Source: Brachypterus glaber | Lineage: Eukaryota; Arthropoda; Insecta; Coleoptera; Kateretidae | NCBI GenBank assembly: GCA_958510825.1 | Contig: OY294048.1 | Location: forward strand, 37,661,026-37,725,025 | Direction of reading: 5' to 3' | Length of the DNA stretch: 64,000 bases | Shown: positions 31,756-31,826 of the stretch, piece by piece | Layout of the letters: each line of letters begins with the position of its first letter | Position numbering within the stretch: position 1 is the first letter of the stretch | Translations under genes and position numbers: made by a program | The notes under the pieces: model-generated | The model's database searches: none | What the model saw: the letters and a program-made list of their open reading frames with translations, nothing else | Told to the model about the DNA's origin: nothing

Positions 31756-31826
31756 TACAGGGTTGAGTCTTGGTACTGAAGAGGGCCAGTAGCCCGAAAC
31801 TGTCAGTCTACCAATATCACTCTGTA
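31756..31826 (+). ncRNA. Type I hammerhead ribozyme motif
   Basis: All parts of a hammerhead can be read. Core CTGAAGA lies at 31,776-31,782 and GAAA at 31,796-31,799. Helix II is GGGC/GCCC with loop CAGTA. Helix III is ACT/AGT (31,799-31,801 with 31,805-31,807) with a three-base loop. The cleavage triplet GTC is at 31,806-31,808, so scission is predicted after 31,808. Helix I is TTGGTA (31,770-31,775) with TACCAA (31,809-31,814), then an internal loop, then TACAG (31,756-31,760) with CTGTA (31,822-31,826). The C-U-G-A-N-G-A and G-A-A-A core is intact; N7 is A, which the family tolerates. A three-base-pair helix III with open helix I is the form known from Penelope-like elements and retrozymes, which often act as dimers. 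Activity is not shown by sequence. Confidence 0.72.

Follow-up and report, generated by a model that had tools for sequence, protein, structure and literature searches.

Animal (metazoan) non-LTR retrozymes are short, AT-rich, non-coding tandem units of ~170-400 nt that carry a type I hammerhead. As far as the cited parts of the published accounts go, they occur in thousands of copies with target-site duplications longer than 4 bp, and lack a reverse transcriptase (RT) of their own in genomes that also house Penelope-like elements (PMC7229834, PMC4918200, PMC7761336, PMC11722881). They are also reported as abundant small circular RNAs, and the sections concerned leave their mobiliser between a LINE and a Penelope-like element (PMC7229834; PMC11722881).

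Penelope-like elements display a characteristic insertion design. In the relevant part of a bdelloid paper, inverted pseudo-LTRs (pLTRs) bear a 31-bp extension on one of them (the "tail") together with short duplications, and head-to-head repeats are proposed to result from self-priming on an antisense template (PMC3846280). According to the portion of PMC11167929 used here, the tail is defined by two adjacent internal RT starts, and a Penelope-like protein cuts and extends both DNA strands in vitro. The same portion gives the anole protein as a predicted dimer for which no difference in start site was seen between strands, the main RT start being located 85-92 nt past the hammerhead cut (111-118 minus 26).

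The window (the whole stretch of 64,000 nt analysed here) contains a type I hammerhead within a retrozyme copy truncated at its 5' end. The full unit is non-coding and ~354 bp long, and we consider, with good confidence, that it is copied into new sites by a Penelope-like (GIY-YIG) reverse transcriptase. The observed basis of this reading comprises the motif, the unit, its tandem and head-to-head layout, two fixed outer ends, the duplications, and Penelope elements arranged alike in the same genome. A Penelope-like mobiliser is favoured because young insertions show the Penelope design, with head-to-head arms ending at two sites, termed A and B, and a 12-20 bp duplication. The retrozyme kind is already known; new here are the insertion signature on a retrozyme and the strict A/B pairing. 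No report of an A/B head-to-head design for a retrozyme was found in a search of one open-access library.

The hammerhead motif and its fold

A preliminary description, made from the sequence alone, had placed an intact type I hammerhead at 31756-31826. All of its pieces were found at the positions given there, and a descriptor scan agrees (Table 1). Helix I has, as described, an inner and an outer paired part (the latter at 31756-31763 / 31819-31826) separated by a small internal loop, and helix III is indeed limited to 3 bp with a three-base loop. The CUGANGA, GAA, and NUH core and the three helices, open at helix I, are those of type I, and the type I descriptor scan returned this single motif on either strand of the window. 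A random control of 1,491 first-order Markov windows yielded 8 looser matches and no match to the strict descriptor (helix I of at least 6 bp, helix II of at least 4 bp). The motif is thereby confirmed by sequence and descriptor as a real type I hammerhead motif, for which cleavage is predicted after C17 at 31808.

Table 1. Positions of the retrozyme copies and hammerhead elements in the window
Feature	Position	Strand	Basis
5'-truncated one-orientation retrozyme fragment, 198 bp (unit 204-354 + 1-54), 3' end at site A	31662..31859	+	alignment to circular unit
Type I hammerhead motif, outer helix included	31756..31826	+	descriptor scan and fold
Helix I, inner 5' strand TTGGTA	31770..31775	+	pairs with TACCAA at 31809-31814; descriptor scan
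Catalytic core CUGAAGA (CTGAAGA in DNA)	31776..31782	+	sequence and descriptor scan
Helix II GGGC/GCCC, loop CAGTA	31783..31795	+	descriptor scan
GAA, helix III ACT/AGT (loop GTC), and cleavage nucleotide C17 at 31808	31796..31808	+	sequence, descriptor scan
Helix I 3' strands: inner TACCAA, outer ACTCTGTA	31809..31826	+	descriptor scan and fold
Site A, 3' end of the fragment, ~51 nt past the predicted cleavage site	31855..31859	+	same site as one arm of young insertions
Second copy, young subfamily, head-to-head: minus arm ends on the site B side (47609), plus arm at site A (47804)	47609..47804	.	
Target-site duplication, left copy TATAGTTTGGATTAGT	47593..47608	+	
Target-site duplication, right copy TATAGTTTGGATTAGT	47805..47820	+	

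The fold of an 83-nt segment scores z = -3.2 against shuffled sequences, 1 of 200 shuffles being equally good. The lowest-energy fold is a competing structure, at -32.0 kcal/mol, while the hammerhead reaches -24.8 kcal/mol when tertiary contacts are left aside; the competing structure pairs the core CUGA with UCAG of helix III and is 7 kcal/mol more stable on paper. RNAalifold did not recover the hammerhead. In 29 copies no covariation was found: none of 28 pairs had both partners altered, and paired cells were no more frequent than in a shuffled control (93.1% versus 93.2%). The segment ACUGUCAGU, which spans GAA, helix III, and the cleavage site, reads as nearly self-complementary, so that a two-molecule (dimeric) hammerhead could form. 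In the parts cited, amphibian and Penelope hammerheads, which share a short helix III, are said to act as dimers (PMC7229834; PMC7761336), although the axolotl hammerhead has one or two helix III pairs as opposed to the 3 bp and 3-nt loop found here.

The preliminary description had also proposed a covariance-model search with Rfam as a check. Taken literally, this check fails for the whole family: the Rfam hammerhead models match nothing in the window at the gathering score, nor up to E = 10, and nothing in two young loci with intact copies (L049 and L114). As it misses the whole family and does not separate it from noise, it was rejected as a test of the motif. Genome-wide, Hammerhead_1 exceeds its cut-off at C10:30938340-30938386 only, among 73 scored of 69,482 candidates, and that match belongs to a different family.

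A family of ~354-bp retrozymes

The motif had been suspected to belong to a small non-autonomous unit, with no RT within about 5 kb. Both points are borne out: it sits in part of a non-coding unit of ~354 bp that has thousands of relatives, and, among frames of at least 100 aa, the nearest RT frame lies at 37121-38968. Searching the genome (648 Mb) with positions 31640-31860 gave at least 45 matches from 40 scored of 1,346 candidates, most of which start at or near 31662 and stop near 31859. The flanks of 20 matches were read and reveal a longer unit, to which the fragment belongs and which is repeated in tandem with a spacing of 354 bp in locus L022, 365 bp in L024, and 347 bp in L013. The reference unit (L022:371-724) is treated as circular, and its positions are counted from the nucleotide following the cleavage site. 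Its G+C content is 0.356 (0.379 in the window fragment), and it harbors no frame longer than 65 codons.

The family thus has the low G+C, non-coding character, tandem monomer of ~170-400 nt in runs from dimers up to long multimers, and, in its young insertions, duplications longer than 4 bp that are known from animal retrozymes, and it is an animal-type (metazoan) non-LTR retrozyme. The window copy itself is a fragment, for which neither an inverted arm nor a target-site duplication was found. Being truncated, with one hammerhead only, it should not release unit-length RNA on its own; most probably it can spread no further.

An exact 32-mer across the predicted cleavage site occurs in 3,522 copies genome-wide, its reversed control in none. 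A 23-mer has 4,562 genome matches, 3,522 of them with the nine upstream bases intact; no conclusion is drawn from this ratio. From 39 scored of 716 candidates, a query of 1.6 units gave at least 130 matches in 39 loci; among the 130 listed, a count by hand puts 114 at 99-100% identity. These young copies form near-identical tandem arrays, the longest of which (L114) reaches 14 regular units arranged head-to-tail with nothing between them and with mixed variants. A single monomeric circle would therefore not give this array, and rolling-circle copying from one such circle is unsupported.

Some arrays depart from this regularity. The spacings in L115 are 354, 353, and 149, repeated twice, then 354 and 354, which is a composite repeat inside a retrozyme array. 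Positions 2461-3206 (oriented) of L013 hold a tandem pair. Its first unit breaks off no more than 1 nt from the cleavage nucleotide, and an A-run and a second copy of the upstream flank come next; the pair looks as if cut RNA had been copied back. Two older copies, L020 and L036, adjoin one and the same flanking repeat, AATATTTTTCTACGACTGC..., hence an insertion into, or copying along with, another repeat.

Whether the core changes more slowly than its surroundings is a weak test for dead retrocopies. Divergence from the majority among 29 aligned copies (27 older ones and two of the young subfamily) is 0.059 in the core, against 0.162 in the 5' flank but 0.057 in the 3' flank. Between the subfamilies, the inner hammerhead differs at 1 of 45 positions versus 11 of 136 elsewhere (Fisher p = 0.30).

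Insertion design of the copies

The young sample consists of 38 loci, of which ten, picked as short and possessing an opposite-strand piece, were fetched whole. The other 28, sampled at both ends, are the remainder of the 39 loci with L022 left aside. In five loci the fetched piece stops before an end, leaving 33 complete insertions. Head-to-head pairs make up 28 of these 33, and 27 of the 28 combine an outer end at A with one at B, with no A/A and no B/B pair. The remaining insertions are one head-to-head pair of the B/unit 30 type, four one-orientation copies ending at A, and one ending at B. Ends were assigned by script from the fetched flanks, excluding array 3' ends cut by the query end, with A covering unit positions 44-72 (mostly 50-60) and B positions 90-108 (mostly 97-99); the range for A is wide because duplications at the ends can lengthen the alignment by chance. 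The retrozyme ends are located +50-54 nt (A) and ~+98 nt (B) past the cleavage site, 46 bp apart. If the same ends were paired at random, the probability of 27 mixed pairs would be 6.9e-8.

Target-site duplications of 12-20 bp flank 26 of the 33 young insertions, whereas duplications of at least 12 bp occur in 17 of 1,924 shuffled pairings; they are 84% A+T. In the ten whole loci, the two arms meet through an overlap of 1-4 nt or with 4-8 extra bases. A further sample was drawn without regard to inversion: the first 100 exact matches to a 23-mer on contig C1 form 60 clusters, with 15 head-to-head, 8 same-strand, 36 single, and one otherwise mixed, none being purely tail-to-tail. The predominance of head-to-head A/B insertions distinguishes the young copies from the published metazoan retrozymes, the cited parts of whose descriptions speak of tandem repeats.

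The design is fainter in older copies. Of 12 inverted pairs inspected by eye, six show the A/B arrangement (L014, L021, L025, L026, L028, and the window copy at 47609-47804); L020 looks A/A, while L012, L033, L040, L043, and L047 misfit or are ambiguous. Duplications of at least 12 bp accompany 10 of 41 older insertions versus 13 of 802 in the control. Both sequence decay and the query used may have obscured the pattern in these copies.

The arms also bear on the role of the hammerhead. In the ten whole loci, 16 of 20 young arms traverse the cleavage site, so their templates were uncut or re-joined. The inner ends are scattered over the unit, and an excess of ends at the cleavage site was rejected, 1 of 20 being found there. 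Such counts would suit a relic that neither cuts nor contributes to mobility, as would the more stable competing fold, the strict descriptor still being fitted by only 6 of the 29 aligned copies, and the in vitro insertion by a Penelope-like protein without hammerhead cleavage described in the cited part of PMC11167929. We nevertheless regard a relic as unlikely, given that the inner hammerhead is unchanged in 36 of 40 complete units of the young, spreading subfamily, and that 15 young loci together yield 66 matches to the strict descriptor. Furthermore, the end of one duplication in L013 lies no more than 1 nt from the cleavage nucleotide, and two outer-helix differences between the subfamilies preserve pairing, as judged by reading.

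Mobilisation by a LINE (e.g., jockey-like) via target-primed reverse transcription, with inverted arms produced by twin priming, appears improbable. LINE-type RT frames are present in the window, and the 1-4 nt overlaps at the central junctions suit twin priming. In twin priming, however, the outer end of the inverted part falls at no fixed place and a minority of insertions is affected, unlike the 28 of 33 inverted insertions observed here, whose outer ends lie at two fixed sites, one per arm. In addition, no poly(A) or simple-repeat tail was found at the ends of insertions. The size of the duplications, at 12-15 bp, would also be compatible with a LINE, and 15-bp ones are given for Nematostella hammerhead repeats in the cited part of PMC4918200.

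Penelope-like elements of the same genome and the proposed mechanism

The Penelope-like mobiliser preferred here has candidates in the same genome. A search for GIY-YIG domains gave at least 31 matches, 11 of equal score, among 150 scored of 419 candidates. Locus L119 harbors a 716-aa RT-GIY-YIG frame, assigned from a Pfam GIY-YIG match and motifs read by eye, together with a partial tandem at 99.4% identity. Of twelve 3' ends in its family, seven lie at a site A', four at B', 34 bp further, and one reads through. The comparison of insertions covers one for each of three families. In that of the L119 family (L120 with L123), the direct arm ends at A' and the head-to-head arm at B', with 15-bp duplications and a tail of 31-34 bp; the insertions of families L121 and L122 are likewise head-to-head, with tails of 33 and 30 bp and duplications of 12 and 15 bp, respectively.

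Hammerhead-like motifs are found upstream of both 3' ends in the Penelope pLTRs of this genome, the ends being positioned at +55/+86-88, +64/+97, and +65/+95 past the hammerhead-like sites in the three families. Activity of the L119-family motif is doubtful as judged from its sequence: in all 10 copies listed, the core begins with U instead of C. The retrozyme shares with Penelope-like elements, as portrayed in the cited sections of PMC3846280 and PMC11167929, the head-to-head arms, one of them extended by a tail of tens of bp, short AT-rich duplications, partial tandems, and a hammerhead-like motif upstream of two 3' ends. It differs from them by the lack of an RT-GIY-YIG frame, a looped helix III, and a long outer pairing in helix I. 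The A-B distance of the retrozyme, 46 bp, compares with 30-40 bp in the published Penelope elements, in the parts cited, and 30-34 bp in the three families here. The kinship with Penelope-like elements and retrozymes suggested in the preliminary description is upheld. No partner Penelope family emerged by sequence, the unit giving no more than weak AT-rich matches against eight Penelope loci; the 9-nt AAATTAATA common to site A and L119 could be due to chance.

These pLTRs raise another reading, in which the unit is the pLTR of an autonomous Penelope-like element and its copies are solo or partial leftovers, with no separate parasite. The pLTRs here do bear hammerhead-like motifs, end at A/B sites, and occur in direct and inverted orientation. 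Yet the 354-bp units follow one another head-to-tail with nothing between them and without any frame above 65 codons, and, with three Penelope proteins as queries, no Penelope frame was found in the window or in loci L001-L118 (flanks up to 3 kb), bar an unrelated piece in L035, which makes this reading distinctly improbable. Ordinary satellite DNA or a foldback DNA transposon with a chance hammerhead-like stretch would account for tandem arrays and inverted repeats, and the mixed variants of the 14-unit array suggest exchange between units, but dispersal over many contigs, duplications at new sites, fixed 3' ends, and inner ends scattered over the unit, unlike terminal inverted repeats, render it highly improbable.

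With a retrozyme inserted by a Penelope-like protein, the following course can be proposed. Tandem genomic units would be transcribed and their hammerheads would cut the RNA to unit length, while uncut RNA, or RNA re-joined into circles, would provide a template spanning the cleavage site. The Penelope-like protein would nick both strands of AT-rich DNA; each strand would receive its own cDNA, begun at A in one case and at B in the other, and the two cDNAs would then be linked through 1-4 nt that they have in common or through a few extra bases. The pairing of ends suggests a single coupled event in which each strand is primed at its own place on the RNA. As no difference in start site between strands was seen for the anole protein, those data alone do not predict strict A/B pairing, and the antisense self-priming proposed for bdelloids (PMC3846280) would be another route to inverted arms.

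More generally, we lean slightly towards the view that animal retrozymes are SINE-like parasites of Penelope-like elements, whose dimeric protein would bind a single retrozyme RNA and prime at A and B on two strands, each complete insertion being an A/B pair. If true, strict A/B pairing would also explain why Penelope's own tail is carried by one pLTR. It bears on the insertion mechanism of Penelope, and the identity of the enzyme that returns retrozymes to the genome, LINE or Penelope-like, can now be tested with named proteins and RNAs.

Other repeats populate the window. A 350-bp foldback-like palindrome (32138-32487), ~310 bp to the right of the hammerhead, has arms 96% complementary with no gap between them. 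Two identical 315-bp tandem units (21214-21846), with relatives at 20185-20403 and 60898-61147, could represent another short tandem retroelement. Positions 49792-52525 are occupied by a satellite-like array of ~22 copies of a 125-bp unit. Finally, a 16-bp unit forms two arrays in inverted orientation (57998-58563), which are 94% alike and could be the ends of a foldback transposon.
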